Shown here piece by piece: positions 16,417-58,803 of a stretch of 64,000 nt of DNA. Within the stretch, counting starts at the first letter, position 1. The number at the start of each line of letters is the position of its first letter. Made by a program: the position numbers and the translations under genes. The DNA lies in the NCBI GenBank assembly GCA_902574525.1, contig CACGNQ010000001.1, forward strand, positions 62,001 to 126,000, written 5' to 3'. Below the pieces are notes generated by a model. That model saw only the letters and a program-made list of their open reading frames with translations. It made no database searches and was not told the origin of the DNA. Source of the DNA: an uncultured Pelagibacteraceae bacterium (GTDB lineage: Bacteria > Pseudomonadota > Alphaproteobacteria > Pelagibacterales > Pelagibacteraceae).

Positions 16417-18456
16417 CTAAAAATCTTTACAAATTCTAAGCGAATCATATATCGCAGCATGAATGTTCCTGCTAGATATAGCATCACCTACCCTGAATAA
16501 AAAGAAGTCACCTTTTTTATTTTTGATAATTTCTTTATTCAATCCTTTGATTAACGATTTATAGTCAACCTGACCTAAATTTTTAGATTGATCTTTTAAT
16601 TCAAAATATAAATCATCTACTGGAGATGTGCCGTGTTCAACAATAACTTGGGAAGTTTCTTTTTCAAAAGTTAAATCTGAGTAATCTGAACTTATTTTTA
16701 CACCTAATCTATTACCTTTTCTAAATACACTTTTTACTCTACTGTTGAGAGATATTTTAACATTTTTTTCATAAAAATTTTTTCCATAAGGAACAAAATT
16801 CATTCCACCAATATCAGGAGAAAAAAATCTTTCTGGAGTTACAATTTCTAATTTAGAAGTTTCACTTGAAATCATCTCAGCAGCTTGTAATCCTGGATAA
16901 TTTCCTCCATCATCATAAAGTACTACATCATCTTCTATATTTACGTTGCCTGATAAAATATCCCATGTTGATACAACTAGATCTGATCCTTCATTTAAAA
17001 TATCAGTATTAGGTATTCCACCAGTCGCTATAATAACTATATCTGGTTTTTCTGATAATATTTCTTCCTTAGATGCAAATGAGTTGAAATTAAATTTAAC
17101 TTTATTTGCTTCGCAAATATTAATTCTCCAATCTATAATTCCAGCCATATCCTTTCTTCTTTTTGATCTAGTGATCAAATTTATTTGTCCGCCTGGTTTA
17201 TCTGATGCTTCAAAGACTGTCACTGAGTGTCCTTGCTCAGAGCAAACTCTTGCTGCTTCAAGACCTGCTGGACCTGCTCCGACAATTGTTATTTTTTTTA
17301 AACCACTCACTTTTTTTTTAAGCAAATGTGGCATGGACATTTCTCTACCAGTTGCTGGATTGTGGATACACAGAGTATCTTTCCCTTCATAAATTCTATC
17401 TAAACAATAAGTAGCCCCTACACATGGTCTTATCTTTTCCTCTTCTTTGTTAATTAATTTTTTTATTATATAGGGATCTGCTATATGTGCTCTTGTCATT
17501 CCAACCATATCTAGTTTGCCACTTTCTATTGCGTATCTTGCAGTTGAAATGTCGTTTATTTTTGAAGCGTGAAATATTGGAATATTAACCATCTTCTTTA
17601 CTTCTCCAGCAAAATCTAAATGAGGTGCGGTGGGCATTCCTTGAATTGGTATCACTTTTGTTAAGGCTGGATCAGTATCAATATGTCCTTTAATAATATT
17701 TAAAAAATCTATTTTACCAGTGGAATTTATTTTTTTTACAATTTCAAAACCTTCCTTTTTAGATAAGCCAATTTTCCAATCTTCATCAGCAACCATTCTC
17801 ATTCCAACTATAAAATCTGATCCAACTCGTGAACGTACTGAATCTATTACCTTCATAGAAAAAGCAATTCTATTATCTATGTTGCCCCCAAATTCATCTT
17901 TTCTTTTATTAGTTGCTGGTGACCAAAAAGAATCTAGTAGATGACCATAAGCCTCTATTTCAACCCCATCTAATCCAGCTTCCTTCATTCGCTCAGCGGC
18001 CAATCCATAGTCATTAATAATTCTTTCAATATCCCAATCTTCTGCCTCTTTTGGAAAAGATCTGTGAGCTGGTTCTCTTAAAGGGGATGCTGAAAGCACA
18101 GGCAACCAATCTGAATGATTCCAGTTTGTTCTTCTGCCTAAGTGAGTAATTTGTATCATTACTTTTGTATCGTATTCATGGCACTCATTTGTTAATTTTT
18201 TTAGCCATGGGATGATTTCATCTTTGTATGCGTGAAGATTATTATAAGCTGGTGGTGAGTCCTCTGAAACAACTGCACTACCTGCGGTCATTGTTAAAGC
18301 TATTCCTCCTTTTGCTCTTTCAACATGATAAAATCTATATTTATCCTTAGGCAAACCGTCTTCTGCATAAGAAGGTTCATGCGCAGATAGCATTACTCTG
18401 TTTTTTAAATTTAAATTTCTTATTTTTAAAGGCTGCAAAAGTGGGTCATTCTTCAT
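16417..18456 (-). CDS. OYE/TMADH-type FMN, Fe-S, FAD oxidoreductase (N-methylproline demethylase-like)
   Basis: The 679-aa protein joins an old-yellow-enzyme TIM barrel (residues 1-335), an Fe-S segment (345-363), and an FAD/NAD-type domain beginning ITIVGAGPAGLEAARV (about 389-404). This is the trimethylamine dehydrogenase, dimethylamine dehydrogenase and 2,4-dienoyl-CoA reductase architecture. The segment CVGATYC...C resembles proteins annotated as N-methylproline (stachydrine) demethylase. Only three of the four TMADH cluster cysteines are visible. It sits 7 nt after bhmt, whose product is dimethylglycine, so N-demethylation of dimethylglycine or a similar betaine is a reasonable guess. 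It should be cytosolic. Confidence 0.8.
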   Translation of the reverse strand: MKNDPLLQPLKIRNLNLKNRVMLSAHEPSYAEDGLPKDKYRFYHVERAKGGIALTMTAGSAVVSEDSPPAYNNLHAYKDEIIPWLKKLTNECHEYDTKVMIQITHLGRRTNWNHSDWLPVLSASPLREPAHRSFPKEAEDWDIERIINDYGLAAERMKEAGLDGVEIEAYGHLLDSFWSPATNKRKDEFGGNIDNRIAFSMKVIDSVRSRVGSDFIVGMRMVADEDWKIGLSKKEGFEIVKKINSTGKIDFLNIIKGHIDTDPALTKVIPIQGMPTAPHLDFAGEVKKMVNIPIFHASKINDISTARYAIESGKLDMVGMTRAHIADPYIIKKLINKEEEKIRPCVGATYCLDRIYEGKDTLCIHNPATGREMSMPHLLKKKVSGLKKITIVGAGPAGLEAARVCSEQGHSVTVFEASDKPGGQINLITRSKRRKDMAGIIDWRINICEANKVKFNFNSFASKEEILSEKPDIVIIATGGIPNTDILNEGSDLVVSTWDILSGNVNIEDDVVLYDDGGNYPGLQAAEMISSETSKLEIVTPERFFSPDIGGMNFVPYGKNFYEKNVKISLNSRVKSVFRKGNRLGVKISSDYSDLTFEKETSQVIVEHGTSPVDDLYFELKDQSKNLGQVDYKSLIKGLNKEIIKNKKGDFFLFRVGDAISSRNIHAAIYDSLRICKDF

Positions 18457-18463
18457 AAAAAAA

Positions 18464-19504
18464 TTAATATTTAATTTCTTTATTAACTTTTTTTAAAGAT
18501 TTATCTGTGCCATGGTGAAAGTGTTTTGTCATATCTGGTGAGTACTTACTTGAGATTGGTTTTTTACCAACTGCTAAAGCCATTTCTCTTACATGATGAG
18601 GTTCGGCTCCACAGCAAATCCCAATAAAATTTATATTTTGTTGCACGCAATCTTTTGCAAATTCAGCCATTTCAAATCTATTACAATATAAATTATCTAG
18701 CGCTATTGGGAATGCGTTATCACCTGGTATGCAATCGCACTGATTATCTTTTATATTTAAAAAAGTTGGATCCTTTTCTGTAGTTCTATATGGAACAGGT
18801 AACCCCGCTACATGGCATGAAACATTCTTTCTTATATCCTTTAAATGTTTCATCGTCATGTCTGGACCTCTATAACAATTTAAACCAACCACATCTGCAC
18901 CAAGATCTTCTATTATTTTGCAAGCGTCCACCACAGAGTATCCGTCTCTAGTTTTTTCACCTCTTGGAATTGCATAATTAGCTACAGCAATTAAACCCTC
19001 ATCCTTAATTGCTTTTAAAGCTATTTTCATTTCCTCGACCCAACTTATAGTTTCTGCTACTATAAAATCCACTCCCGCTTCTTTGGCCCATTTTACTTGT
19101 TCCTCATACATGTTTTGACACTCTATAAATGAATTTTTATCATTAGGATCAAAAATATTGGTATTGGCGACATCACCACAGACCATAAGATCTAAATCTT
19201 TAAAACTATCCTTTGCATCATTAGCAATTTTCAAAGCATTTTTTTGGAGTGGTTCTAATAAATCTTCTTTTCCTATAATTCTTAATTTTTCTCTATGACC
19301 ATAATAAGTAAATGCTTGAACAACGTCTGAACCTGCTCTTATAAATTCTTTGTGAAGTTGACTAACTACTTCAGGGTGTTCTAGGACAACTTCGGGTACA
19401 AATGCTCCAGCAGATAAATAACCTCTTCTTTCCATTGCAAAGAGGTAACCTTCGGCACAAATTATTGGGCCTTCATTTAATCTAGTGAGTAAATCTTTTT
19501 TCAT
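18464..19504 (-). CDS. bhmt: Betaine-homocysteine S-methyltransferase family
   Basis: The 346-aa protein has the zinc/thiol methyltransferase layout: GLNCYRGPDM near residue 203 holds the first zinc Cys, and FIGICCGAEPHHVREMA near 296-312 holds the paired Cys. It transfers a methyl group from glycine betaine to homocysteine, giving methionine and dimethylglycine. The length fits the betaine-specific branch, and the divergent neighbour is a betaine-type binding protein. It heads an operon with an N-demethylase-like flavoprotein, a methyltransferase and a kinase. No convincing SAM riboswitch is seen upstream. Other homocysteine methyltransferases are the main alternative. Confidence 0.85.
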   Translation of the reverse strand: MKKDLLTRLNEGPIICAEGYLFAMERRGYLSAGAFVPEVVLEHPEVVSQLHKEFIRAGSDVVQAFTYYGHREKLRIIGKEDLLEPLQKNALKIANDAKDSFKDLDLMVCGDVANTNIFDPNDKNSFIECQNMYEEQVKWAKEAGVDFIVAETISWVEEMKIALKAIKDEGLIAVANYAIPRGEKTRDGYSVVDACKIIEDLGADVVGLNCYRGPDMTMKHLKDIRKNVSCHVAGLPVPYRTTEKDPTFLNIKDNQCDCIPGDNAFPIALDNLYCNRFEMAEFAKDCVQQNINFIGICCGAEPHHVREMALAVGKKPISSKYSPDMTKHFHHGTDKSLKKVNKEIKY

Positions 19505-19560
19505 ACCACCCTTTAATTAAAATAATGTTACATCCAATTTTATCCCTCTAAAAGACAATT

Positions 19561-19583
19561 TTGATACAACTCAAAGTTGATAC
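19561..19583. repeat. Direct repeat TTGATAC x2 in the bhmt / betaine transporter intergenic region
   Basis: TTGATAC occurs at 19561-19567 and 19577-19583, 16 nt start to start. The two copies enclose a small inverted repeat, CAACTCAAAGTTG. The element lies mid-way in the 140-base gap between divergent bhmt and the binding-protein gene. It could be an operator serving both directions, and the second copy could also act as a -35 element for the + strand operon. No regulator gene adjoins it. Confidence 0.35.
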
Positions 19584-19644
19584 TAGTTTGCATTTTAATT
19601 TCAATGTGTTCTAATTAAGCATTAAATATAAACACGGAGATAAA

Positions 19645-20655
19645 ATGAATATAAAAAGAATACTACTTTCTGCTCTAGTTATTTTAGGTTTCACTTCTTT
19701 TAGTGGAATTGCAAATGCTGCTTGTGGAAAGATATCAATTGCTAACATGAACTGGGCTTCTGCTAACTTCATGGCTGAGGTTGATAAAATTATACTAGAA
19801 AAAGGATATGGCTGTGATGTTGAATTAGTGCCTGGTGCAACTATGCCAACATTTACATCTATGCAAGAAAAAGGTGAACCAGATATAGCTCCTGAGTTTT
19901 GGGCTAATGCTGCAATTGTTGAATTAGAAAAAGCTGTATCTGAAGGAAAACTTCACTCAATAAACAAGGCTCCTATTACTGGTTTAGGTGAAGGATGGTG
20001 GGTATTACCTGCTACTTTAGAAAAGCATCCAGAATTAACTACTGCTGATGCAATTTTAAAAAGACCTGATCTATTTCCACACCCTGAAGATCCATCAAAA
20101 GGTGGATTTCATATTTGCCCTCCAGGATGGAACTGTGAATTAAGTAACAGAAACCATTATAGAGCTTGGGAAATGGAAAAAAAAGGTTGGAAGATTGTTG
20201 AAACTGGTTCAGCAGCTGGACTTGATGGTTCAATTGCTAAAGCTGCCGAAAGAGGTGAAAACTGGTTTGGTTACTATTGGTCACCAACAGCTTTAATTGG
20301 AAAATACGGAATGATAGCTGTTGATATGGGTGAATACGCTGGAAAAGATAACTGGGATAATTGTTTATCAAAACCAGAACAAGAATGTGCTAACCCTAAA
20401 AAATCTTCATGGGTTAAATCAGAAGTTTTCACTGTAGCTACTGATAACTATAAAAAAACTGCTGGAAAAGATGGTATGAATTATCTTAAGAAAAGAGTTT
20501 ATCCTGGTCCAGTAATGAACGGCATGTTAGTTTGGATGGGAGAAAACCAAGCTGAAGGTGCAGATGCTGCGATAGAGTTCCTTAAAACTCAAGAAGACGT
20601 TTGGTCTAAATGGGTATCTGGAAAAGCAAAAAAAGCTATAAAAGCATCACTATAA
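19645..20655 (+). CDS. Glycine betaine/proline-type ABC transporter substrate-binding protein
   Basis: The 336-aa protein has a signal peptide ending GIANAACGK. The mature part matches the OpuAC/ProX fold: NMNWASANFMAEVDKIIL at the start, the Trp-rich EFWANA (about residue 90), GEGWWVLP near 114, and a terminal EDVWSKWVSGK. Aromatic residues such as these build the cage for quaternary ammonium groups. It lies in the periplasm and feeds the permease encoded next. No ATPase gene follows. A strong stem-loop just after the stop would favour more of this transcript than of the permease. Exact ligand is inferred (betaine or a related methylated compound). Confidence 0.88.
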   Translation: MNIKRILLSALVILGFTSFSGIANAACGKISIANMNWASANFMAEVDKIILEKGYGCDVELVPGATMPTFTSMQEKGEPDIAPEFWANAAIVELEKAVSEGKLHSINKAPITGLGEGWWVLPATLEKHPELTTADAILKRPDLFPHPEDPSKGGFHICPPGWNCELSNRNHYRAWEMEKKGWKIVETGSAAGLDGSIAKAAERGENWFGYYWSPTALIGKYGMIAVDMGEYAGKDNWDNCLSKPEQECANPKKSSWVKSEVFTVATDNYKKTAGKDGMNYLKKRVYPGPVMNGMLVWMGENQAEGADAAIEFLKTQEDVWSKWVSGKAKKAIKASL

Positions 20656-20668
20656 TAATGTAAATTAT

Positions 20669-20696
20669 CTGAACCCGTTTAAAATAACGGGTTCAG
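20669..20696 (+). terminator. Stem-loop between binding protein and permease genes
   Basis: An 11-bp perfect stem CTGAACCCGTT / AACGGGTTCAG encloses the 6-nt loop TAAAAT. No U-run follows, so it is more likely a partial terminator or an mRNA-stabilising hairpin than a full stop. That would give excess binding protein over permease. Confidence 0.7.
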
Positions 20697-20707
20697 AACA
20701 AAATTTT

Positions 20708-21595
20708 ATGGATTTCTTAAATAATATTCCCGAAATGGATCGTACCGCTTTAAGAGAATTAAAGAAGGGAATAGATTTAAGTTTTAAAGAATTTTCAAGA
20801 GCTTATGGAGACGGGATTGAAAGTTTTTTTGATCCTCTTTTATATTTTTTAATTTGGTTGGAAAAATTATTAGTAACTAGCCCATGGCCAATTGTAATTG
20901 GGGTTTTTGGTTTATTAGCATGGATTGGATCAAGGAGTGTTAAACTAGTAATTGGAACAATGATATGTTTTGTTATTATTGGATATTTTGGAATGTGGAA
21001 GAACTGTATGGCAACAGTAGCTATAATTTCAGTTTCAACATTAGTCTGTATTGTTGTGGGTATACCAATTGGAGTTTTAATGTCTAAATCTGATAGAGCA
21101 GAAAAAACTATTTTACCAATTTTAGATATGATGCAAACTATACCAAGTTTCGTTTATTTAATTCCAATTATCATGTTGTTAGGAATTGGCAAAGTACCAG
21201 GTTTATTAGCTGTATGTATATATGCCCTTCCTCCAATTGTTCGGTTAACTAACTTAGGAATAAGGGAGGTTGATAAAGAAACCCTCGAAGCAAGTGAAGC
21301 ATTTGGGGCAACTCCATTACAAAAGTTAAAATCTGTACAAATCCCATTGTCGCTTCCAACGATATTTGCTGGAATAAATCAAACTATAATGATGGCTTTA
21401 GCAATGGTAGTGATAGCTTCTATGATTGGTGTGAAAGGTTTAGGTATACCAATTCTCCAATCTATTTCTAACCAATATTTGGCCCTCGGGATGATGAATG
21501 GTCTAGCAATTGTAGCCCTAGCAATAATTTTTGACAGGGTAACTCAAAAATACGGACAAAGGATCCAAAAACACAGGGGTCAAAACAAAAAGTAA
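20708..21595 (+). CDS. Betaine/proline-type ABC transporter permease
   Basis: The 295-aa inner-membrane protein has about six hydrophobic segments. It carries the ATPase-coupling EAA loop in VDKETLEASEAFGATPLQKLKSV (about residues 189-211), typical of OpuAB/ProW. A soluble N-terminal part (about 45 aa) precedes the first membrane span. It pairs with the binding protein 52 nt upstream. The usual ATPase gene is missing here; the nearest ProV-type ATPase is at 46852-47889 and may be shared. Confidence 0.88.
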   Translation: MDFLNNIPEMDRTALRELKKGIDLSFKEFSRAYGDGIESFFDPLLYFLIWLEKLLVTSPWPIVIGVFGLLAWIGSRSVKLVIGTMICFVIIGYFGMWKNCMATVAIISVSTLVCIVVGIPIGVLMSKSDRAEKTILPILDMMQTIPSFVYLIPIIMLLGIGKVPGLLAVCIYALPPIVRLTNLGIREVDKETLEASEAFGATPLQKLKSVQIPLSLPTIFAGINQTIMMALAMVVIASMIGVKGLGIPILQSISNQYLALGMMNGLAIVALAIIFDRVTQKYGQRIQKHRGQNKK

Positions 21596-21659: not shown

Positions 21660-22388
21660 ATGAATTTTTCTTTAGAAATTAGTCCTAAAACTGATTTGGA
21701 AACTTTGCCTTCTCTAAAAGATGTTTATATAACCATGCTGCCAGGTGGAGACTACAAAGATACGGCAAAACAAGCAGTAAATTTAGTTAAAAGTGGCTAT
21801 AACCCAATACCTCATTTTCCAGCAAGATCCATTGAGACTGAAACACAACTTAAAGACTACATTTCAATTTGTAAAGACGGAGGTGTAAAACAAGCACTTA
21901 TCATAGGTGGGAGCAGAGAACCTATCGGTAAATTTGATAGCTCAATCCAGCTTCTTGAGACAGGTTATTTTGAGAAGATGAAGATAGGAATTGCTGGACA
22001 TCCAGAGGGGAGTCCTGATATATCGGATTCTAAATTAGAAAAAGCAATGGAAGATAAAAAGCCTTACGCTGATTATATAGTCACACAGTGGTTGATGGAT
22101 CCACAGCTAATAATTGACTTTATATCAAAACAATCAGTACCAGTTCATGTAGGAATTACTGGGCCACTTAAAATAACAAGCTTAATAAAATTTGCTAATA
22201 TTGTTGGTGCAAAAAATTCCATAAATTTTCTTAAATCTAACTTTAGTAAGGCATTAGATTTAATGAAACCTAAAGACCCTAATGAATTAATTGGGAAATT
22301 AAAAATGCATACTGATTTTTTTCACATTTATACATTCGGCGGCTTGAAGGAAACAAACAAGTGGTTGGAGGAAAATAAATATGTCTAA
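21660..22388 (+). CDS. Methylenetetrahydrofolate reductase-like (MetF superfamily) protein
   Basis: The 242-aa protein resembles the MTHFR TIM barrel, with NPIPHFPARSIETETQL near residues 44-60 and ALIIGGSREPIGKFDSSIQLL near 80-100, as in MetF. It is shorter than MetF (about 290 aa), and no second metF lies in the window to compare. It overlaps the next gene, a GcvT-fold demethylase, by 8 nt. In THF-dependent demethylation systems a MetF partner reoxidises the 5-methyl-THF formed. I infer that role here: C1 recovery after methyl transfer from an unknown donor. Confidence 0.65.
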   Translation: MNFSLEISPKTDLETLPSLKDVYITMLPGGDYKDTAKQAVNLVKSGYNPIPHFPARSIETETQLKDYISICKDGGVKQALIIGGSREPIGKFDSSIQLLETGYFEKMKIGIAGHPEGSPDISDSKLEKAMEDKKPYADYIVTQWLMDPQLIIDFISKQSVPVHVGITGPLKITSLIKFANIVGAKNSINFLKSNFSKALDLMKPKDPNELIGKLKMHTDFFHIYTFGGLKETNKWLEENKYV

Positions 22389-23736
22389 AGAATTTGATTA
22401 TTCAAAAATGAAACATGCAACGTCTGTAAATCAATCAGATCGACAGGTACCTTATAATTTAAGACAAAGTGGTCCGACAAAAGTTGAGCTACTAATTTCA
22501 ACACGAGTTAGAAAATCACCTTATTGGCATTTGTCAATGAGAGCAGGTTGTTGGAGAGCCACAGTATACAATCGTATTTATCATCCAAGAGGATATGTAA
22601 GAGGAAAAAATGGTGCGATGGTAGAATATAATTCAATTAAAAATGATGTAACAATGTGGAATGTTGCAGTAGAAAGACAAATAAGAGTAAAGGGACGTGA
22701 CGCTGAAAAATTTGTTAATTATGTAATTACAAGAGATGCTACTAAAATCTCACCAATGCGTGCAAGATACGTAATCTTGTGTAACTATAAAGGTGGTGTT
22801 TTAAATGACCCAATACTTTTAAGAATATCTAAAGACGAATTTTGGTTTAGTTTATCAGACAGTGATATCGGACTTTATTTGCAAGGAGTAAATGCAAACA
22901 AAAAGTTTAAATGTGAAATTGATGAAATAGATTCTTGTCCTGTTCAAATACAGGGGCCAAAAGCATTGGCGTTAATGAAAGATCTTATAGGGAGACAAGT
23001 TAAATTAGATAATATGCCATACTACGGTTTAGCAAAAGCGAAAGTTGGTGGTAGACCATGCATAATTTCTCAAACTGGTTTTTCAGGTGAAGCTGGATAT
23101 GAAATATATTTATATAATGCAACTAAGTATGCTGATGATATGTGGAATGCAGTATTAAAAGCTGGTAAAAAACATAAATTAAGAGTTATTGCACCAGCAC
23201 ACCATAGAAGAATTCAAGCTGGTATTCTCTCGTGGGGTCAGGATTTAGATCATGAGCATAATCCTTTTCAATGTAATCTTGGATATCAAGTATCATTATC
23301 TGGTAAGGGTGAGTGGAAGAAAAAAGCTAATTACGTAGGAAAAGAAGCGCTTGAAAAAATGGGAAAAAAATTAAAAGCTGGAAAGAAACCTTATAAACTA
23401 CAGCTGGTTGGTTTGGAATTAGGCGGAAAACCAATTAAAGAATATGCACCAGATTTTTGGTTGATTTCTAAAGCTAGTGGTGGAAAACCAGTCGGATTTA
23501 TAACTTCTCCTTGGTATCATCCTGAAAAAGGAACCAATATTGCTATGGGATATGTTCCATATGATGGTACTAAAAATCATAATGGATTTCCAAAAGGAAA
23601 AGTTGGTTCAAAATATAAAGTACATCTACCTAAGAAATATTCTATTAAACCAGGTAAACCTGTAGACGCAGTAGTTGTAGATATTCCATTTACAGACTCA
23701 CACCACGCAAATACTAGAGAAGTAGTCAAAGGTTAA
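22381..23736 (+). CDS. GcvT-fold tetrahydrofolate-dependent methyltransferase, DmdA-like paralogue
   Basis: The 451-aa protein contains a GCV_T domain (about residues 80-330: NVAVERQIRVKGRDAEKF, SDSDIGLYLQG, IQGPKALALMK, SGEAGYEIYLYNA) and a GCV_T C-terminal barrel. Several of these segments follow the DMSP demethylase DmdA more closely than GcvT. It is longer than DmdA (about 370 aa), with roughly 45 extra N-terminal residues (rich in basic residues) and loops near the end. No other gcv genes are present. It lies in a betaine-transporter operon and overlaps a MetF-like gene, so an N-methyl or S-methyl osmolyte is the likely donor. A DmdA assignment is not justified without substrate-site comparison. 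Confidence 0.75.
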   Translation: MSKEFDYSKMKHATSVNQSDRQVPYNLRQSGPTKVELLISTRVRKSPYWHLSMRAGCWRATVYNRIYHPRGYVRGKNGAMVEYNSIKNDVTMWNVAVERQIRVKGRDAEKFVNYVITRDATKISPMRARYVILCNYKGGVLNDPILLRISKDEFWFSLSDSDIGLYLQGVNANKKFKCEIDEIDSCPVQIQGPKALALMKDLIGRQVKLDNMPYYGLAKAKVGGRPCIISQTGFSGEAGYEIYLYNATKYADDMWNAVLKAGKKHKLRVIAPAHHRRIQAGILSWGQDLDHEHNPFQCNLGYQVSLSGKGEWKKKANYVGKEALEKMGKKLKAGKKPYKLQLVGLELGGKPIKEYAPDFWLISKASGGKPVGFITSPWYHPEKGTNIAMGYVPYDGTKNHNGFPKGKVGSKYKVHLPKKYSIKPGKPVDAVVVDIPFTDSHHANTREVVKG

Positions 23737-31287: not shown

Positions 31288-31872
31288 TTAAATAGCTTTA
31301 TAACCAAATTCAAGTGAGGCGTCTGTGACAGAATGATACAATGATTCTCCAAAACTTCTCAAACTCATTACTCTTACTGTTGCAGGTTGGTCGTTAACAA
31401 AATCTAAAGTTATGGCTATTCCATTGTAAATTGAATTTATTGATTGATTTTTATTTAATTCATTAAAATTTATTGGACAGCCTTTTTTTAATACTTCTTT
31501 TAAATTTTTCCCAGATAGCTCAATTATTGCTTTTGAGTGGGATAAATCAGTAATTGCAAATTCATTGTTAGATAAATTTTTACTTATTTCCTCAGATAAT
31601 TTTTCTGAACTTGAAAATATAAACCAATTATTGGGCCCTATCCATAATATTCTCGTATCATTATTTCCAGAAACTTTTAAATCATCTGGGAAATTCAAAT
31701 CAAATATTTTGTATTCTTTAATATTTGTTTTGCTTGTTTTATATTTTACTACTTGGAAAATCTTAAAGTTTTTTAATTCTTTTATAGTAATAATTTCATC
31801 AAAGTTCTTTCCCTCAAAATTACCAAAATTTCCTAGCTCATGAACATTATTCAAAGGTGATATACTTGTCAT
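31288..31872 (-). CDS. soxG: Sarcosine oxidase gamma subunit
   Basis: The 194-aa protein is the folate-linked small subunit of heterotetrameric sarcosine oxidase. Visible family parts are DTRILWIGPNNWFIFS near residue 72, AITDLSHSKAIIELSG near 102, and VMSLRSFGESLYH near the end. It is the last gene of soxBDAG and overlaps soxA by 4 nt. The complex oxidises sarcosine to glycine and passes the methyl group to THF. The same subunit architecture also forms N-methylglutamate dehydrogenase. Confidence 0.85.
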   Translation of the reverse strand: MTSISPLNNVHELGNFGNFEGKNFDEIITIKELKNFKIFQVVKYKTSKTNIKEYKIFDLNFPDDLKVSGNNDTRILWIGPNNWFIFSSSEKLSEEISKNLSNNEFAITDLSHSKAIIELSGKNLKEVLKKGCPINFNELNKNQSINSIYNGIAITLDFVNDQPATVRVMSLRSFGESLYHSVTDASLEFGYKAI

Positions 31873-34865
31873 GATCGTACTCTTTCCCCTTTAGGATCAA
31901 CATAATGAGATGATACAATTTCAACTGGGATTGTTTTATTTTTTAGTGGAGACATTGCGTATAATTTTGATCCAATCATATTTTTCCCATCTTTTAATAT
32001 AGCAAGAGAAAATGGATTATTATGCTCAACACTCCAACAAGATGCTGAAATATGTCCTAATTTTAAAATTGGCATTTTTGCTTTAGGATCGTTTACAAGG
32101 TGTGATCCCTCTGGAATGCTAGTTTTTTTATCGAGTGGAACTACTCCAACAATTCTTTGTCTGTCTGTCTCATTAAATGCTTTTCTTAACAAAGATCTTT
32201 TACCAATGAAATCTTTCTTTTTGCTAACTAAACCATCTAATCCTGTATCATATGGAATTGTTCTTCCATCTAATTCTGATCCAGCAACATGCCCCATCTC
32301 TATTCTAAGAGTAGAAAGAGCTTCTGTTCCATAAGGTTGTAAATTAAAATCTTTTCCGTTTTCAATAATTTTTTCCCACATGAAGTTTCCATTATCAGAT
32401 TCAACATTAACCTCATAAGCCAACTCGCCCGAGAATGAAATTCTAAATATTCTTGCTTTAACACCAAATAAATTTGCCTCTAAAAACCCCATAAACGGTA
32501 AAGCATCATTCGAAACGTCTATATCTGGAAAAATTTTTTGTAACAAATCCCTAGATTTTGGGCCAGCAATAGCTGCTCCAGCCCATTGCTCTGTTGATGA
32601 TACTACATTTACATCAAGTTCAGGCCAAACAATTTGTAAATAATATTCTAAATGAGATAGAACGTTTGCCGCTTGCGCAGTTGTTGTAGTCATATGGTAA
32701 TGATTTTCTGATATCCTTGTTGTTGTGCCATCATCCATTACAACGCCATCTTCTCTTAACATTACTCCGTATCTTGCTTTTCCAACAGGTAACTTAAGCC
32801 ATGCATTGGTGTAAACTCTATTTAAAAATTCTGCAGAATCTTTTCCTTTCACATCTATTTTACCTAAAGTTGTAACATCACATACCCCAACATTTTTTCT
32901 AACATTTTCAGCTTCTCTTTTAGATGCCTCAAACAGACCTTCATTACCTTTTTTATAATATCTCGGTCTTAACCAAACTCCTGCATCAACAAAAACTGCA
33001 TTATTTTTTTCATGCCAACTATGCATAGGAGATTTTCTAGTTGGTTTGGAATGTTTGCCTATCTCTCTTCCAACAATTGCCCCTATGGTAACAGGGGTAT
33101 ATGGTGGTCGAAATGTTGTGTGTCCTACAGCAGGCACTACTTTATTCTCGATATTTGAGACTAATTGTAATCCGTTTAAATTACTTGTTTTTCCTTGGTC
33201 TGTTGCCATTCCTAATGTTGTGTATCTTTTTACATGTTCAATTGATCTATAACCTTCTCTTAATGCTAACTCTATGTCAGATACAGCAACATCATTTTGA
33301 AAATCTAAAAATCTTTTATAGTTTTTACCATTCGGTAGAGGTACACACCAAAATTTATCATGTTTTGATTGCTGTTTTTCCGAAACTTGCGGTGATTGTA
33401 ATTTATTATCTTGATTAGTTATTTCTTTTGATAATTCATAACCTTTTTGAAAAGATGTTTTTAAAGTTTCATCTAAAGTAAAAACCCCATTAGCTGAGCC
33501 TAGAGTAATTTCTTTTTGCTTTGATTTGTCTGGAACAAATGCATCGATATCTTCTATAAATTTAGTTTTACTACCTGATTGGGATGCTAAATGTATTGTC
33601 GGAGTCCAAAATCCTGAAACACAAATACAATCACATTTAATATTCGAGATATCAATTAGGTTTTCCTTGTTATCTGAAATCATTGCAATGTCGCATGATT
33701 TAACTTTCTTATAACCTTTTGCAGCTACTACTACATGAGAAAATTTTATCTCTATACCTAATGAAAGAGCTTCTTTTATAATCTCAGACTGTGGATTTTT
33801 TCTACTATCCAAAACAACAGGATTAATATTATTTTTTTTAAACTCTATTGCTGTTTCATATGCGCTGTCATTGTTTGTAAATATTACAGGTTTTTTTCCA
33901 ACTAACACTCCATAAACTTTCATATATTCTTTAGCAGCAGAAGCTAGGACTACTCCTGGAGTATCATTATTGCCAAAAACAATTGGCCTTTCAATTGACC
34001 CTGAGGATATTACAACCTGTTTTGCTCGAATATACCACATTCTTTGTTTAGGAGTGTGTTTATCTGATTTTGGAAGATGATCAGTTATCCTTTCAGACAT
34101 CACCAACATATTATGATCATAGTAACCAAATATTTGTGATCTGTTTTTTACAATCACATTTTCCATTCCTTTGAGTTCAGTAATTATATTGTCAGCCCAG
34201 TCTTTGCCGCTTTGATTTCCAATACTCACATCAGAAGTAAGTAAGCTTCCCCCGTATCTAGGCTTGTCTTCTGCCAAAATAACTCTTGCTCCATTTTTGG
34301 CTGCTGCGTACGCGCTTGCTAGTCCTGATGGACCTGACCCAGCAATTAGTAAATCACAATACTCGTATTTATGTTCATATTTCTCTTTATCATGCTTAGT
34401 TGATGCAGATCCAAAGCCTGCTGCTTTTCTAATAAATGGCTCATAAATCTTGTACCAAAAGCTTTTTGGCCACATGAAAGTTTTATAATAAAAACCTGCT
34501 GGAAAGAAAATATTCAAAAAATTATTTATTGCTCCAATATCAAAGTTAACACTCGGCCAACAATTAACACTTTTTGCCTCTAAACCCTCAAACAATTCTT
34601 GTTCTGTGGCCCTAACATTCGGATCCGTTTCTCCATTTCTGCTTAGCTGGACTATTGCATATGGCTCATCCACACCTGCTCCAAAAAAACCTCTTGGTCT
34701 ATGATATTTAAAGCTTCGCCCTACTAAATGAACTCCATTTGCAATTAACGCTGAGGCTAAAGTGTCCCCTTCGTAACCAAAATAATTTTTACCGTTAAAT
34801 TTAAATGAAATTTTTTTATTTTTGTTAATTAAACCAGTGTTATCTAATCTAAAACTTTGTGTCAT
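31869..34865 (-). CDS. soxA: Sarcosine oxidase alpha subunit (or N-methylglutamate dehydrogenase large subunit)
   Basis: The 998-aa protein has an N-terminal 2Fe-2S ferredoxin-like region without cluster cysteines (KFNGKNYFGYEGDTLASALIANG). A nucleotide-binding core follows (YCDLLIAGSGPSGLASAYAAAKNG, about 167-190). The C-terminal half is a GCV_T aminomethyltransferase (GKIDVKGKDSAEFLNRVYTNAW, AGPKSRDLL, FSGELAYEVNV). The last part receives the methyl group as methylene-THF. The length is normal. It overlaps soxD and soxG by 4 nt each. Substrate (sarcosine or N-methylglutamate) cannot be settled by eye. Confidence 0.88.
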   Translation of the reverse strand: MTQSFRLDNTGLINKNKKISFKFNGKNYFGYEGDTLASALIANGVHLVGRSFKYHRPRGFFGAGVDEPYAIVQLSRNGETDPNVRATEQELFEGLEAKSVNCWPSVNFDIGAINNFLNIFFPAGFYYKTFMWPKSFWYKIYEPFIRKAAGFGSASTKHDKEKYEHKYEYCDLLIAGSGPSGLASAYAAAKNGARVILAEDKPRYGGSLLTSDVSIGNQSGKDWADNIITELKGMENVIVKNRSQIFGYYDHNMLVMSERITDHLPKSDKHTPKQRMWYIRAKQVVISSGSIERPIVFGNNDTPGVVLASAAKEYMKVYGVLVGKKPVIFTNNDSAYETAIEFKKNNINPVVLDSRKNPQSEIIKEALSLGIEIKFSHVVVAAKGYKKVKSCDIAMISDNKENLIDISNIKCDCICVSGFWTPTIHLASQSGSKTKFIEDIDAFVPDKSKQKEITLGSANGVFTLDETLKTSFQKGYELSKEITNQDNKLQSPQVSEKQQSKHDKFWCVPLPNGKNYKRFLDFQNDVAVSDIELALREGYRSIEHVKRYTTLGMATDQGKTSNLNGLQLVSNIENKVVPAVGHTTFRPPYTPVTIGAIVGREIGKHSKPTRKSPMHSWHEKNNAVFVDAGVWLRPRYYKKGNEGLFEASKREAENVRKNVGVCDVTTLGKIDVKGKDSAEFLNRVYTNAWLKLPVGKARYGVMLREDGVVMDDGTTTRISENHYHMTTTTAQAANVLSHLEYYLQIVWPELDVNVVSSTEQWAGAAIAGPKSRDLLQKIFPDIDVSNDALPFMGFLEANLFGVKARIFRISFSGELAYEVNVESDNGNFMWEKIIENGKDFNLQPYGTEALSTLRIEMGHVAGSELDGRTIPYDTGLDGLVSKKKDFIGKRSLLRKAFNETDRQRIVGVVPLDKKTSIPEGSHLVNDPKAKMPILKLGHISASCWSVEHNNPFSLAILKDGKNMIGSKLYAMSPLKNKTIPVEIVSSHYVDPKGERVRS

Positions 34866-35134
34866 GTTTCCACTTTATCTTCTGATTTGTAGGTATTAAA
34901 AATCTCATGCGTATTTGTATCTCTCAACACTTTAATCCATTGTCTACATCCTGATACATGGTGCCATAGCTCTAGGTGTTTGCCTCTTGGACTTTTTCTT
35001 AAATATACAAAGTTATCCCATTCTTTATCAGTAACTTCTTTATTTAATTCTGGTCTTTTTACAGTGGCATCTCCACCGTAGGCAAATTCATTTTGGGATC
35101 TATATCCACAATAGGGACATTTAATATAGAGCAT
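34862..35134 (-). CDS. soxD: Sarcosine oxidase delta subunit
   Basis: The 90-aa protein begins MLYIKCPYCGYRSQNEF, the Cys-rich zinc site typical of SoxD, and has FAYGGDA, VYLRKSPRGKHLELWHHVSGCRQW and KVLRDT. It is a structural zinc-binding subunit of the heterotetramer. It starts one base after the soxB stop and overlaps soxA by 4 nt, so stoichiometric translation is expected. Confidence 0.92.
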   Translation of the reverse strand: MLYIKCPYCGYRSQNEFAYGGDATVKRPELNKEVTDKEWDNFVYLRKSPRGKHLELWHHVSGCRQWIKVLRDTNTHEIFNTYKSEDKVET

Positions 35135-36391
35135 TTATGAGATCCAAGTTTTAGTTCCAAGACCTTTTTCATCAATTAGATGACCAGTAGAAAACCTATC
35201 TAATCTAAAGCCAGCATTAAGTTCATGAACTTTATCCTGTGCAATAGTGTGGGCAAAAGTAAAACCAGATGCTGGTGTTGCCTTAAAACCTCCATAACAC
35301 CATCCACAATTTAAATACAATCCTTGAATATGAGTTTTGTCAATTATAGGAGAACCATCCATTGACATATCCATAATTCCACCCCAGGTTCTCAACATTT
35401 TCAATTTACTTAAAAAAGGAAACATTGCAATTCCCTCTGTTAGTACATGTTGCAGTGTGGGTAGATTTCCTCGTTGAGCATAACTATTATATCCATCAAG
35501 ATCTCCCCCCATAACCATTTCTCCTTTATCAGATTGGCTACAATAAAAATGACCTGCTCCAAAAGTTACAACATGATCAAGAAGAGGTTTAATCGGTTCT
35601 GAAACGCATGCCTGTAGTAAATGAGTTTCAATCGGTAAAGTCATGTTTAACATATCAGCTAAAATTGATGTACTACCAGCCACACATAAACCAACTTTTT
35701 TTGCTTTAATATCTCCTCTTGAAGTTTTAATTCCTTTTATTTTTCCATTGCTTATATCAAAACCTGTTACTTCGCAGTGTTGAACAATATCCACACCCAT
35801 TGAGTCTGCTTGTCTTGCGTATCCCCATGCAACAGCATCATGTCTAGCTGTTCCAGCACTTGGTTGCATTAATCCTCCAAATATTGGAAATCTAACGTTG
35901 TCAGAAAAATCTAAAATTGGTACTTTATTTTTTACTTCTTCTCTATTTAACAACACTGCATCAATTCCATTTAATTTCATTGAGTTTCCTCTTCGTGCAT
36001 AAGCATTCATTTGGGCATCTGAATGTGCAAGATTTATAATTCCTCTTGGAGAAAACATTATATTAAAATTTAAATCCTGACTCATGCTTCTCCAAAGTTC
36101 CATTCCTTTTTCGTAAAATAATGCGTTCTCATCGTGCATATAATTTGATCTTATTATGGTGGTATTCCTTCCTATATTACCCCCACCAATCCATCCTTTT
36201 TCGATTACCGCAATGTTTGTAATTTTATGCTCTTTAGCTAAGTAATACGCAGTAGCTAATCCATGGCCTCCACCACCAATTATAACAACATCATATTCTT
36301 TTTTTGGATCTTGATCTTTCCAGGCAACTTCCCAGTCTTTGTGACTTGAGAATGCATTTTTTATAAGGCTTAAAACAGAATATTTTTGCAT
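35135..36391 (-). CDS. soxB: Sarcosine oxidase beta subunit
   Basis: The 418-aa FAD protein has the dinucleotide site YDVVIIGGGGHGLATAYYLAKEH near residue 33, followed by GGNIGRNTTIIRSNY. This is the D-amino-acid-oxidase fold with the flavin-attachment region. TWGGIMDMSMDGSPIIDKT and LNCGWCYGGFKATPASG near 340-375 contact FAD. It carries the amine oxidation site. It is the first gene of soxBDAG and is divergent from fhs across 93 bases, so both could share control by C1 demand. Confidence 0.9.
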   Translation of the reverse strand: MQKYSVLSLIKNAFSSHKDWEVAWKDQDPKKEYDVVIIGGGGHGLATAYYLAKEHKITNIAVIEKGWIGGGNIGRNTTIIRSNYMHDENALFYEKGMELWRSMSQDLNFNIMFSPRGIINLAHSDAQMNAYARRGNSMKLNGIDAVLLNREEVKNKVPILDFSDNVRFPIFGGLMQPSAGTARHDAVAWGYARQADSMGVDIVQHCEVTGFDISNGKIKGIKTSRGDIKAKKVGLCVAGSTSILADMLNMTLPIETHLLQACVSEPIKPLLDHVVTFGAGHFYCSQSDKGEMVMGGDLDGYNSYAQRGNLPTLQHVLTEGIAMFPFLSKLKMLRTWGGIMDMSMDGSPIIDKTHIQGLYLNCGWCYGGFKATPASGFTFAHTIAQDKVHELNAGFRLDRFSTGHLIDEKGLGTKTWIS

Positions 36392-36484: not shown

Positions 36485-38173
36485 ATGGGCGCAGTTAAAT
36501 CAGACATAGAGATCGCAAGAGCAGCAAAAATGAGGCCTATTAAGGATATTTTAGGTAAAATAAAGGTGCCTGATAATAATAGCAGCTTCAGTCCAATGGG
36601 CAGACATATCGCTAAAATAAACCTAGAGTATTTGAGTAAATTAAAAAAGAAAAAAGATGGACATTTAATTTTAGTTACAGCGATTACACCTACTCCTGCT
36701 GGAGAAGGTAAAACAACCACCTCCGTAGGACTGCATGATGGACTAAATAAAATTGGAAAGAAATCAATAGTATGTTTGAGGGAACCTAGTTTAGGACCAT
36801 CATTTGGTATGAAAGGTGGAGCTGCTGGCGGGGGTTACGCACAAGTAGTGCCAATGGAGCAAATTAATTTACATTTCACAGGAGATTTCCATGCAATTAC
36901 ATCTGCCCATAATTTACTATCTGCATTAATTGATAATCACATCTATTGGGGAAATAAACTTAATATTGATGATAAGAAAATTGTATGGAAAAGAGTAATG
37001 GATATGAATGATAGAGCTCTTAGATTTATAAATATTAATACCAAAGGAGTTGCAAAAGATTTTCCAAGAGAAGATGGGTTTGATATTACAGTTGCTTCAG
37101 AGGTAATGGCAATTTTTTGCTTATCAAATGATTTGAAAGATTTAGAAAAAAGAATTGGAAATATAACAATCGCATATAATAAAAATGGTAAGCCTGTATA
37201 TGCTAGAGATTTAAATGCTCAAGGACCAATGACTGTTCTTCTTAAAGAAGCAATAAGACCAAATGTAACTCAAACGTTAGAAAATAATCCAGCATTAATT
37301 CATGGAGGTCCTTTTGCTAACATTGCACACGGATGTAATTCTGTTATTGCAACTAAATCTGCTTTAAAACTTGCTGACTTTGTTGTAACAGAAGCGGGGT
37401 TTGGCGCTGACCTTGGTGCCGAAAAATTTTTAAATATTAAATGTAGAAAATCAAATATAAAACCGAGTTGTGTTGTAATTGTTGCAACAATAAGAGCACT
37501 AAAAATGCATGGAGGTGTAGAAAAGGCAAACTTAAAAAGTGAAAATGTTGATGCACTCAAAAAAGGATTAGTGAATTTAGAAAGACATATAAATAATATC
37601 AAAAAATTTAGCTTAACTCCTGTAGTCGCTATTAATAGTTTTATACTTGACACAAAAAAGGAAATTTCTGCTGTCAAAGACTTTTGTAAAAATCAAAAGG
37701 TTGAGGTAAGTGAATCTACTCATTGGGCAGATGGTGGAAAAGGCGCAAAAGATCTTGCAAAAAAAGTTGTTAAAATATGCAAAAATTCGAAAAAGAAAAA
37801 TTTTAAATTTTTATATAAAGATGATCAATCTTTATGGAGTAAAGTTGAGACAATTGCTAAAGAGATATACAAAGCAAGCTCAATTACTGCAGACGATAAT
37901 GTCAAAAAGCAGTTAAAAATTTTTGAAGATAACGGATATGGAAAATTACCTGTTTGTATTGCTAAAACACAGTACAGTTTTTCAGTAGATCCAAAATTAA
38001 AAGGTGCGCCTTCAGGTCACGAAATCTCTATTAGAGAGGTAAGGTTATCATCTGGTGCTGAATTTATTGTTGTTGTATGTGGATCAATTATGACTATGCC
38101 TGGTTTACCAAGAGTCCCTGCAGCTGACAAAATAAGATTAAATAAAAAAGGCGATATTGAAGGATTATTTTAA
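36485..38173 (+). CDS. fhs: Formate-tetrahydrofolate ligase
   Basis: The 562-aa protein is full length. The P-loop lies in [16 protein letters not shown] (about residues 71-86), then [19 protein letters not shown] near 98. [20 protein letters not shown] near 262 and the late SPTG-like [21 protein letters not shown] follow. It joins formate and THF at the cost of ATP, or runs in reverse, linking oxidised C1 units from demethylation to the folate pool. It is divergent from sox, and its end overlaps gshB by 9 nt on the opposite strand. Confidence 0.96.
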
Positions 38174-48916: not shown

Positions 48917-49855
48917 TTACTTAGTCCACTTTTGCCAAACAGATTTATTATCAGCTAACCACTTTTTAGCAGCGTCTTCATGAGACATCTTATCTAAGTC
49001 AACTAAAGCAGCCATTGCTCCAATTTGACTAGTATTGAATGACAGCTTTTTATACATTGCTGCTGCAGCTGGGTGAGTTTTTGGAAAGTTCTCATTAACA
49101 GCTTTTTTTAAGTAGCCGTCAGGAGCTCCACATTTTCCATCACCACCGTCGACTGGTCTGCACCCGTCATAGTATGGTGGAAAATCAATAAATGTAAAAC
49201 CAGCACCATCAGTAAAGTTTGGTGTCCAATTAAAGATAATTGTTCCTCTTCCTTCTTTTTCAGCGGCTTTTAGCTCTGCCCATAATGCATCAGCACCACC
49301 AGCAAATTTTACTGTCCAAAGATCTCCTAATCCAAGAGCTTCTATTCTCTGTGGGATTAGATCTCCGTGCCAACTTTGTGGACCTTCTAACATACGTCCT
49401 TTACCACCAGAGTCTGGTGTTGCAAATTTTTTAGCACAGTCTGGATTTTTTAAAGCATTCCAATCTGGTAGACCTGGACAATATTTTACAGCCCAGTCAG
49501 GATAACCCATGTCTTCAATTGTTCTTGCTTCATGATCACCCCAATCTAATAAGCCACCTTTATCTCTAGCAGTATCAAAAGATTTACCGAACGCTGATTC
49601 CCATACCTCGTGAGATATAGTCACGTCACCAATTCTTATAGACTCATAAACTGCTTGAGAGTCTGCAGGTACATATTTTACGTTATTACCCATACTTTCA
49701 AAAATACCACCTATCACATATGCCATAACCACTTGGCTAGACCAGTTGTGAGTTGGAATTACGATGGGTTTTTTACTATCTGCTGAGTTTGCAATTCCAA
49801 TAAAAGAAGCCATTGAAATGACAACTGCAGATATAAGAGATATTATTTTTCTCAT
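48917..49855 (-). CDS. tmoX: TMAO/betaine-type ABC transporter substrate-binding protein (TmoX-like)
   Basis: The 312-aa protein has a signal peptide (ISAVVISMASFIGIANSADS) and the ProX/OpuAC fold: IPTHNWSSQVVMAYVIGGIFE, SHEVWESAF near residue 83, and aromatic residues in GPQSWHGDL and FNWTPNFT that would line a quaternary-ammonium or N-oxide pocket. It is divergent from tdm across about 100 bases, as expected of a TMAO uptake/catabolism locus. It is clearly different in sequence from the binding protein at 19645. The ligand is inferred from the context. Confidence 0.82.
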   Translation of the reverse strand: MRKIISLISAVVISMASFIGIANSADSKKPIVIPTHNWSSQVVMAYVIGGIFESMGNNVKYVPADSQAVYESIRIGDVTISHEVWESAFGKSFDTARDKGGLLDWGDHEARTIEDMGYPDWAVKYCPGLPDWNALKNPDCAKKFATPDSGGKGRMLEGPQSWHGDLIPQRIEALGLGDLWTVKFAGGADALWAELKAAEKEGRGTIIFNWTPNFTDGAGFTFIDFPPYYDGCRPVDGGDGKCGAPDGYLKKAVNENFPKTHPAAAAMYKKLSFNTSQIGAMAALVDLDKMSHEDAAKKWLADNKSVWQKWTK

Positions 49856-49961
49856 TATTTTCCCCTTTCTTAATATATTAAGTCCATAATTATGTGCTCA
49901 AGAAAAAGTATAGTCAACAAGAACATATATATATAATATATAAGTGAATTTATAATTGCTT
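49856..49961. promoter_or_regulatory. Divergent promoter region between tmoX and tdm
   Basis: This 106-base gap must hold promoters in both directions. It contains an AT-alternating stretch, CATATATATATAATATAT (about 49924-49941), whose TATAAT is a good -10 element for the + strand. No clear operator palindrome other than the alternating tract is seen. Confidence 0.45.
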
Positions 49962-52741: not shown

Positions 52742-54067
52742 ATGTCTTTACCAACAAAAGCTAAAGTTGTTATTATTGGTGGTGGAATACACGGTCTAAG
52801 TACCGCGTGGAAGTTATCTCAAAAATATAAAAATCAAAATGATGTAATAGTTTTAGAAAAGAAAGACACTGCAGCCGGTGCAAGTGGTATTGCTTGTGGT
52901 GTTGTAAGAAATAATTATTTTCAACCAGCAATGAGAGAATTAATGGCTCACTCCGTAAGTGTTTGGGAAAGTGATCCAAAAGCTTTTAAATATAACGCTG
53001 TAGGTTATTTGCAAATATCTCCTGAAGTTATGCATAAAGATGTTGCTAGCATTTATGAGCAGCAAAAGGCTATAGGTTACGAATCTGAATTTATTGAAGG
53101 AGAAAAAGATTGTTTAAAATATATGAAAACAATTTTTGATGATTGGCAAGCGAAAGGAATAACATCTGTACTTCATGAAAAAAAAGGTGGTTATGCTTTT
53201 AATAAAGATTCAATTAAAGCTTTGGAAGCAAAAGCGAATAATAATGGAACTAATATAATAAAAGGAATAAAAGTTACTGGTTTCAAAAGGGGAAGTAATA
53301 GTAATGCAGTTACCGGTGTTGTTACAGATCAAGGAACAATTGACTGCGAGCAAGTTGTTATCGGAGCTGGACCATGGGTAAGAGATTTTTGGAATATGCT
53401 AGAGTTGCCAAAAACAACTGACATTAAAGGTAAAGACGGAAAAATGCACGAAGTTGAGATGTGGAAATATTGGTTTTTACAAGAGGGTGTGCTTGGTGTT
53501 GATAAAGATTACTTAAAAACTAATGAAGGAAAAATACCACCAGTCACACATGTGGATACTGATGCTCCTTTGTACTCAGATAAAGATGGCAAATTAATTA
53601 CAGATAAATTATGGGGAATATATTACAAGCCAGATATTGATGGGCTTGGCGTTCAAGGTGGAACATCACCTTACATTGTTGATAAGCATTTTGATAAAGT
53701 AAATATAGATCCATACGGAATTGACTCGCCAGAGTATCAAACGACAGATAAGTTTTCTGATATGTGGACTTCAGCATTAGCTCATTGTCAAAAAAGGTTT
53801 GAAGGAAAATCAAATCTTTATAGAAAAGGACCTTCCGGTGGACTGGGTTGTTTGACACCTGACTCTTTTCCAATCTTTGATCGGTTCTTTGAGAATGTTT
53901 ATATGATTGCGGATGCAAACCACGGATATAAAATGATAGGTGTTGGTCAGTTAGTTGCTGAAGAAATTATGGGCCACGAAAGTGATTTATTAAAACCTTT
54001 TAGATTCAATCGATACGCGAAAGGTGAATTGCACCCTACTTCGAACAGTCCTTTTCCTTGGAGTTAA
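52742..54067 (+). CDS. FAD-dependent amine oxidoreductase (DAO family, SoxB/DMGDH-like)
   Basis: The 441-aa protein has an N-terminal FAD site AKVVIIGGGIHGLSTAWKL (about residues 8-26), then AAGASGIACGVVRNNYF, resembling sarcosine-oxidase beta and dimethylglycine dehydrogenase. The C-terminal segment GGLGCLTPDSFPIFDR...ADANHGYKMIGVGQLVAEEI binds FAD. A middle insert (about residues 220-300, charged) is longer than in SoxB. No GcvT domain is attached, unlike DMGDH. It sits between tdm and the mgs/gmaS genes, so a secondary amine such as dimethylamine, dimethylglycine or an N-methylated amino acid is a reasonable substrate guess. Confidence 0.78.
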   Translation: MSLPTKAKVVIIGGGIHGLSTAWKLSQKYKNQNDVIVLEKKDTAAGASGIACGVVRNNYFQPAMRELMAHSVSVWESDPKAFKYNAVGYLQISPEVMHKDVASIYEQQKAIGYESEFIEGEKDCLKYMKTIFDDWQAKGITSVLHEKKGGYAFNKDSIKALEAKANNNGTNIIKGIKVTGFKRGSNSNAVTGVVTDQGTIDCEQVVIGAGPWVRDFWNMLELPKTTDIKGKDGKMHEVEMWKYWFLQEGVLGVDKDYLKTNEGKIPPVTHVDTDAPLYSDKDGKLITDKLWGIYYKPDIDGLGVQGGTSPYIVDKHFDKVNIDPYGIDSPEYQTTDKFSDMWTSALAHCQKRFEGKSNLYRKGPSGGLGCLTPDSFPIFDRFFENVYMIADANHGYKMIGVGQLVAEEIMGHESDLLKPFRFNRYAKGELHPTSNSPFPWS

Positions 54068-54139
54068 ACTAACTTTATGGACACAAAACTAAATATCCGG
54101 TACTTTTATTAAATAAAAATTCTTTGATAAGGGGGAAAA

Positions 54140-55609: not shown

Positions 55610-55626
55610 TATAAAAGGGAAAAAAT

Positions 55627-58801: not shown

Positions 58802-58803
58802 AA

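Follow-up and report, generated by a model that had tools for sequence, protein, structure and literature searches.

Glycine betaine is among the commonest marine osmolytes. The removal of its first methyl group by marine bacteria was still called elusive in 2025, and betaine demethylation by SAR11 was ascribed to BHMT alone (Mausz et al. 2025; PMC12478193). This is hard to reconcile with the finding that SAR11 oxidizes the methyl groups of betaine to CO2 (PMC3160333), because by our own stoichiometric argument BHMT can break down no more betaine than the methylation of homocysteine can use up. A parallel to the locus described here is the ligM-metF-ligH operon (PMC6888825) of Sphingobium SYK-6, whose MetF is described as favouring 5-methyl-THF oxidation and as acting with LigM (PMC13001107). 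For HTCC1062, Sun et al. (2011) reported that metF (SAR11_1264) adjoins a gene for a DmdA-related aminomethyltransferase (SAR11_1265), and speculated that the latter takes off the second methyl group of DMSP by demethylation of MMPA (PMC3160333). Transcripts of both genes drop 5-10-fold in stationary phase (PMC5069961). This fits a growth-linked energy pathway, whatever its substrate. No functional assignment of SAR11_1264/1265 later than 2011 was found in the literature.

A stretch of 64,000 nucleotides (the window) from a SAR11 genome (820 kb, 65% complete) was analysed. It holds a MetF-like gene and a gene for a GcvT-fold protein, termed AMT in the following (Table 1). As read from the nucleotide sequence, the two genes overlap by exactly 8 nt, with the ATG of AMT within AAATATGTCTAA. 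The initial annotation had named this overlap with a short MetF relative, and the overlap is exact for the two intact plus-strand ORFs. The gene order given there, with AMT first, has to be reversed since metF lies upstream, and the wording "fused" does not apply to two separate overlapping genes. From gene order and family we infer that the pair is orthologous to SAR11_1264/1265. It is already known since 2011, with another guessed role (MMPA; PMC3160333). The nearest public loci carry Pelagibacteraceae titles. Among 80 public SAR11 loci metF was located immediately 5' of AMT in all 77 in which it was visible, and the identical overlap was present in 64 of these (hand count of the locus table). 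The pairing is far beyond chance, and it is the metF-AMT pair, excluding the transporter, that forms the conserved unit in SAR11.

Table 1 Genes of the metF-AMT locus and of its surroundings in the window
Feature	Position	Strand	Evidence and remarks
BHMT-like homocysteine S-methyltransferase, divergent from opuAC	18464..19504	-	Pfam S-methyl_trans; BHMT 97.7 vs cut-off 338; 12/80 loci
opuAC-type substrate-binding protein, variable upstream island	19645..20655	+	Pfam OpuAC 151.8; 14/80 SAR11 loci
opuAB, ProW/ChoW-like permease, variable upstream island	20708..21595	+	Pfam BPD_transp_1; ProW 271.5 (below 439); 16/80 SAR11 loci
MetF-like 5,10-methylene-THF reductase relative	21660..22388	+	242 aa, intact ORF; MTHFR 7xg9 2.9e-32
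AMT, GcvT-fold DmdA-related protein	22381..23736	+	451 aa, intact ORF; Pfam GCV_T; proposed glycine betaine:THF methyltransferase
soxG position	31288..31872	-	194 aa; overlaps soxA by 4 nt; identity from position only
soxA, sarcosine oxidase alpha family	31869..34865	-	TIGR01372 1316.7, cut-off 1164; predicted later step or N-methylglutamate dehydrogenase
soxD	34862-35134	-	52% identity to SoxD of G397
soxB	35135-36391	-	53% identity to SoxB of G397
fhs, formate-THF ligase	36485..38173	+	58% identity over 556 residues to Fhs of L145 (Pfam FTHFS)

Upstream of the pair the window has a variable island (16417-21595) with genes for an OYE/FMN oxidoreductase, a BHMT-like protein, opuAC and opuAB. 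The OYE-like gene is also divergent from the opu genes. Frequencies of 12-16 in 80 SAR11 loci were counted for opuAC, opuAB and the BHMT-like gene, a lower bound as some loci end at contig ends. No opuAA-type ATPase gene was seen among the ORFs adjoining opuAC and opuAB. Their co-transcription with metF-AMT in the window is plausible, as the genes are close and on the same strand. An operon with a betaine transporter had been put forward initially. The transporter genes are indeed there, but since just 14-16 of 80 SAR11 loci have them beside metF-AMT they are no conserved partner, and the transporter was dropped as key evidence. In place of the island, many SAR11 loci have a Rieske oxygenase upstream of metF-AMT, and such a gene was present in 43 of the 126 loci scanned. 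The Rieske oxygenase at L154:6559-7764 (minus strand) was nearest to the carnitine monooxygenase CntA (6.8e-32), scored 125 with GbcA (cut-off 670) and is of the quaternary-amine type. Elsewhere in the window, a true TMAO demethylase Tdm is encoded (49956-52301, plus strand; NCBIfam 1102.8, cut-off 1100); its neighbour is a betaine-type OpuAC-like binding protein (48917-49855, minus strand) with no NCBIfam match. Genes for a DAO-family oxidoreductase, a glutamine-synthetase-like protein and glutamate-synthase-like proteins (52742-59211, plus strand) resemble the N-methylglutamate pathway of SAR11 (PMC3160333). Within the window no riboswitch was matched by Rfam at gathering thresholds.

AMT belongs to the GcvT superfamily (Pfam GCV_T 138.9 bits, cut-off 25.6). 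Its best solved relative by sequence was DmdA (3tfh, 5.8e-43), and the AlphaFold2 model (pLDDT 88.8) matched 3tfh (TM 0.92 on target) and then the T-protein 1woo (TM 0.89) in Foldseek. The description as a GcvT-fold, DmdA-like protein was thereby confirmed. An identity as true DmdA is ruled out by profile score, tree placement and a pocket residue. With the NCBIfam DmdA equivalog NF009133 (cut-off 410 bits) 224.6 bits were obtained for the window AMT and 236-337 for its orthologs, and a separate true DmdA (525 bits) is encoded in the same genome. By maximum likelihood, a branch with a support of 100/100 separates 31 sequences of AMT from the rest of the tree, and 12 DmdA sequences were likewise set apart (100/100). 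The archaeal AMT also fall within the AMT clade. GcvT is ruled out as well, for AMT is below the three family cut-offs (153.4 vs 300, 130.3 vs 235.9 and 119.6 vs 459) and the true GcvT of the genome is encoded on contig C5 (476.6 bits, cut-off 459). The scores for LigM and DesA were 29 and 42.9 bits (NCBIfam cut-offs 580 and 800), that for Tdm 149 (cut-off 1100), and the SoxA cut-off was likewise not reached. Further GcvT-fold paralogs were noticed on contig C6 of the same genome (L155:6928-8151), close to the true DmdA and with an FMN dehydrogenase and a TPP enzyme as neighbours, and in the SAR11-order genome G039 (L158:9160-10293), between metF-AMT and DMGDH.

For DmdA, a Trp at the DMSP-interaction position was named W171 in a PeerJ alignment (PMC7487153). 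This residue was mapped here by alignment to W197 of DmdA. In this column Phe was found in 35 of 35 AMT sequences, and Trp or Tyr in 12 DmdA. The THF-site residues D143, E241, Y243 and R277 are invariant in the AMT alignment. AMT has specific residues that do not vary between its bacterial and archaeal members: an N-terminal motif (D20-R21, P24, N26-L27-R28-Q29, G31) as well as H68, Q231, H274, W285 and Q297. The position of Q231 is occupied by Arg or Lys in all other GcvT-fold proteins compared, that of Q297 by Glu or Asp in almost all of them. All statements on the pocket refer to alignment columns. The exchange of Asp for Asn at residue 94 was dropped as a family marker, as the archaeal members have Asp. 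The basic N-terminus noted earlier is real in the window AMT (pI of the whole protein 9.7), but it is a SAR11-specific trait and not one of the family: five orthologs checked outside SAR11 have a pI of 4.4-5.7. It was dropped as a functional feature.

Tree placement and pocket residues were the two comparisons suggested in the initial annotation for recognizing a true DmdA, which should fall inside the DmdA clade and keep the DMSP residues. AMT falls outside (100/100) and has Phe where the DMSP-linked Trp is expected. Hence, AMT resembles DmdA and likely works like it, by methyl transfer to THF, yet differs from it. Demethylation of MMPA, i.e. removal of the second methyl group of DMSP (Sun et al. 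2011), or of DMSP itself, would agree with the relationship to DmdA, the adjacent metF and the speculation in PMC3160333. We regard this role as quite improbable: 14 of the 20 AMT genomes outside SAR11 have no DmdA over the cut-off, hence no MMPA from demethylation; AMT is located outside DmdA in the tree and carries Phe at the DMSP-linked Trp position (35/35); and its neighbours are genes of N-methyl catabolism, not dmdBC.

The MetF of the window scored 19.9 bits with Pfam MTHFR, and some SAR11 orthologs exceed the cut-off of 24 (27.2). Over its whole length it matched the MTHFR 7xg9 (2.9e-32), the enzyme of SYK-6 and the closest relative among solved structures. It is 29-34% identical to the AMT-adjacent MetF of gammaproteobacterial, alphaproteobacterial and archaeal genomes (E 1e-34 to 1e-42). 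In the genomes tested of the SAR11 order and of f32, the MetF of the pair is the sole MTHFR-like match, except for G012, where no match was obtained with the MTHFR profile though the gene is present. Several other AMT genomes carry a canonical MetF as well. SAR11 bacteria are without MetH and MetE (PMC12478193), and no use is known in them for 5-methyl-THF formed by reduction. The partner genes, the described preference of the SYK-6 MetF (PMC13001107) and this absence of MetH and MetE (PMC12478193) argue for an oxidative direction of MetF. An opposite arrangement is conceivable, in which AMT is an accessory aminomethyltransferase that loads THF with the methylene groups released by FAD amine dehydrogenases, and MetF acts as a reductase for methionine synthesis. 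The GcvT fold and the co-located FAD amine dehydrogenases would suit such a function. However, the DMGDH-type neighbours and SoxA carry a GCV_T domain of their own, a true GcvT over the cut-off is encoded in the genome while AMT is below all GcvT cut-offs, and 5-methyl-THF would find neither MetH nor MetE in SAR11 (PMC12478193). We therefore hold this explanation to be very unlikely, even more so than a role in MMPA or DMSP demethylation.

A close AMT ortholog (at least 75% identity) was detected in most, not all, of 60 SAR11-order genomes searched. It is missing from G158 and G435, which are both near-complete and belong to a different genus in the same family. Outside the SAR11 order, orthologs with 48-80% identity, mostly 55-80%, were found in 16 of the 385 alphaproteobacterial genomes sampled, and two gammaproteobacterial families contributed four more genomes. 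Furthermore, AMT is encoded on megaplasmids of haloarchaea (Haloarcula, Halobellus, Salinigranum and others; in Haloarcula hispanica on NC_015944.1) with 55-65% identity to a gammaproteobacterial member. A GcvT-fold relative with 38.9% identity to AMT lies unannotated in a record from human faeces labelled Bacteriophage sp. (MT835505.1, 32884-34032), which may be bacterial DNA mislabelled as phage. Two Listeria phage records gave weak matches to AMT.

AMT is linked genomically to the breakdown of dimethylglycine and sarcosine. A DAO+GCV_T (DMGDH-type) gene, called by domain and context, was located within 10 kb of AMT in 13 of the 20 bacterial cases outside SAR11, G244 being counted by its gene coordinates. 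Genes for SoxB and SoxD were near AMT in seven of these genomes (G397, G090, G319, G424, G135, G346 and G307) and in the SAR11-order genome G039. Also near AMT were metF (G397, G090, G319, G307, G790, G562 and G595) and fhs (G307, G502, G562, G595 and G039). In the gammaproteobacterial cluster of G502 a regulator passes the NCBIfam GbdR equivalog (497.9 vs 480) and a serine dehydratase gene adjoins; the arrangement is the same in G562 and G595. GbdR of Pseudomonas is induced by betaine and dimethylglycine (PMC12093977). In all five haloarchaeal loci read (L234-L238) an MTHFR gene is located within about 5 kb of AMT, together with various genes of THF-based C1 metabolism (FolD, fhs, GlyA, DHFR, folP/pabB). 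Four of the five have a large FAD-dependent oxidoreductase, confirmed as DAO+GCV_T in two, and one has a BCCT transporter. On the megaplasmids, these genes seem to form a betaine or C1 module that can be transferred. Judged by their predicted functions, the neighbours of AMT provide the steps downstream of betaine demethylation and, in addition, THF-linked C1 oxidation. None of the known enzymes for the opening step is encoded in the clusters, and AMT, as the gene that remains, is the candidate for it.

The first-step enzymes were compared among genomes. GbcA passed the cut-off in only one of the 20 AMT genomes outside SAR11 (G790; G361 was just under it), MTTB was found in three (G361, G307 and G424), and 16 of the 20 had neither GbcA nor MTTB. 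DMGDH orthologs were searched in 77 alphaproteobacterial genomes, 15 of them AMT-positive and 62 AMT-negative. At 54% identity or more they were detected in 18 genomes, 12 with and 6 without AMT. MTTB (MtgB family) was present in 6/6 of those without AMT vs 2/12 of those with AMT (Fisher p = 0.0015), a small sample of 18 genomes from many families, with kinship ignored and BHMT outside the profiled families. Both MTTB of the AMT-positive group are partial genes. AMT follows DMGDH (12/15 vs 6/62, p = 1.8e-7), and among AMT-negative genomes so does MTTB (6/6 vs 7/56, p = 2.8e-5), kinship being ignored in both tests. Thus, AMT and MTTB are mutually near-exclusive among the genomes with a DMGDH ortholog. 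The slot divergent from DMGDH is taken by MTTB in G101, G122 and G094 and by AMT in G135, G318, G346 and G424.

The following pathway is proposed. AMT would move one methyl group of glycine betaine straight to THF, yielding dimethylglycine and 5-methyl-THF, with neither cobalamin nor oxygen nor homocysteine involved. Oxidation of 5-methyl-THF to 5,10-methylene-THF would fall to the MetF encoded by the overlapping gene. DMGDH would then demethylate dimethylglycine and SoxBDAG sarcosine, with FolD and Fhs oxidizing the C1 units. AMT is probably a THF-dependent glycine betaine demethylase and MetF the corresponding 5-methyl-THF oxidant. The gene pair, the DmdA-like fold and sequence, the separate clade, the THF-site residues kept, the recurrent DMGDH, sox, metF, fhs and GbdR neighbours and the complementarity with MTTB were observed, and from them we infer substrate, methyl transfer and oxidative direction. 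Further support comes from soxBDAG and fhs within the window and from a DMGDH ortholog on its contig, which is 80% identical to the one in G221. That SAR11 converts the methyl groups of betaine to CO2 (PMC3160333) also supports betaine as substrate. Against the proposal stand the distance of about 45 kb between AMT and the DMGDH gene upstream of it in the window genome, the varying genes directly 5' of the pair in SAR11 loci (Rieske or OYE-BHMT-opu), the 7 of 20 bacterial loci outside SAR11 in which DMGDH was not seen near AMT, and the presence of BHMT in SAR11, with which the demethylation step is not empty there.

The same chemistry with the same MetF could serve another N-methyl osmolyte, e.g. 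proline betaine, carnitine, choline or other betaines. DAO+GCV_T enzymes and MTTB proteins vary in substrate, the residues setting the substrate are unreadable from sequence, and the oxygenase upstream in many SAR11 loci is CntA-like and of the quaternary amine type. Nevertheless, DMGDH, soxBDA, GbdR and serine dehydratase make up the betaine catabolism set of Pseudomonas (PMC12093977), and a substrate other than glycine betaine seems unlikely to us, less so than the MMPA/DMSP and aminomethyltransferase roles. Of the initial proposal, a THF-dependent demethylase, DmdA-like but distinct from DmdA, probably for an N-methyl osmolyte and with methyl recovery by MetF, has proved the best-supported reading by profiles, tree, pocket residue, neighbourhoods and complementarity with MtgB.

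A GcvT-type betaine demethylase was not found in the literature, with preprints and most subscription journals outside the scope of the search. With slightly less confidence than for the function itself, we consider it likely that AMT and its oxidative MetF represent an unreported family of betaine:THF methyltransferases independent of cobalamin, O2 and homocysteine. Betaine demethylation would thereby gain a fourth route, conserved in most of SAR11, scattered among alpha- and gammaproteobacteria and also carried by megaplasmids of haloarchaea. If glycine betaine is the substrate, AMT would be a new activity within a known fold and, to our knowledge, the first GcvT-fold enzyme demethylating a quaternary ammonium directly. 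Its gene would then serve as a metagenomic marker of betaine turnover, and annotations of AMT genes as GcvT or aminomethyltransferase would be corrected.

Compared with known systems, AMT shares with DmdA of P. ubique (3tfh) the fold, the N-D-P motif, a sister region of the tree and likely a redox-neutral methyl transfer to THF. It differs by an identity of only 26-30%, its separate clade, the N-terminal extension with the invariant motif, Phe for Trp/Tyr at the DMSP-linked position and the pairing with metF. LigM-MetF-LigH of Sphingobium SYK-6 likewise combines a THF demethylase, an oxidative MetF and a formate-THF ligase, here in a single operon, but acts on aryl O-methyl substrates, and LigM is distant from AMT (TM ~0.58, 16% identity). 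Tdm has a GcvT-like folate domain and an N-methyl substrate, but also an additional N-terminal domain of ~380 aa, and AMT is far below its cut-off (149 vs 1100). For MtgB/MtgC/MtgD of the MTTB family the same reaction was proposed, betaine and THF to dimethylglycine and 5-methyl-THF, with metF2 as partner (PMC12478193), and MtgB has the same position beside DMGDH as AMT. In contrast to AMT, this system has an unrelated fold, consists of three components and requires cobalamin. GbcAB shares with AMT the proposed opening step of betaine breakdown, but is a Rieske oxygenase, consumes O2 and releases formaldehyde. BHMT (SAR11_1173) is predicted to convert betaine to dimethylglycine in SAR11, but it passes the methyl group to homocysteine, which binds the flux to the methionine demand. 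Direct transfer to THF by AMT, if true, would lift this limit and provide abundant marine heterotrophs with a cheap energy route.
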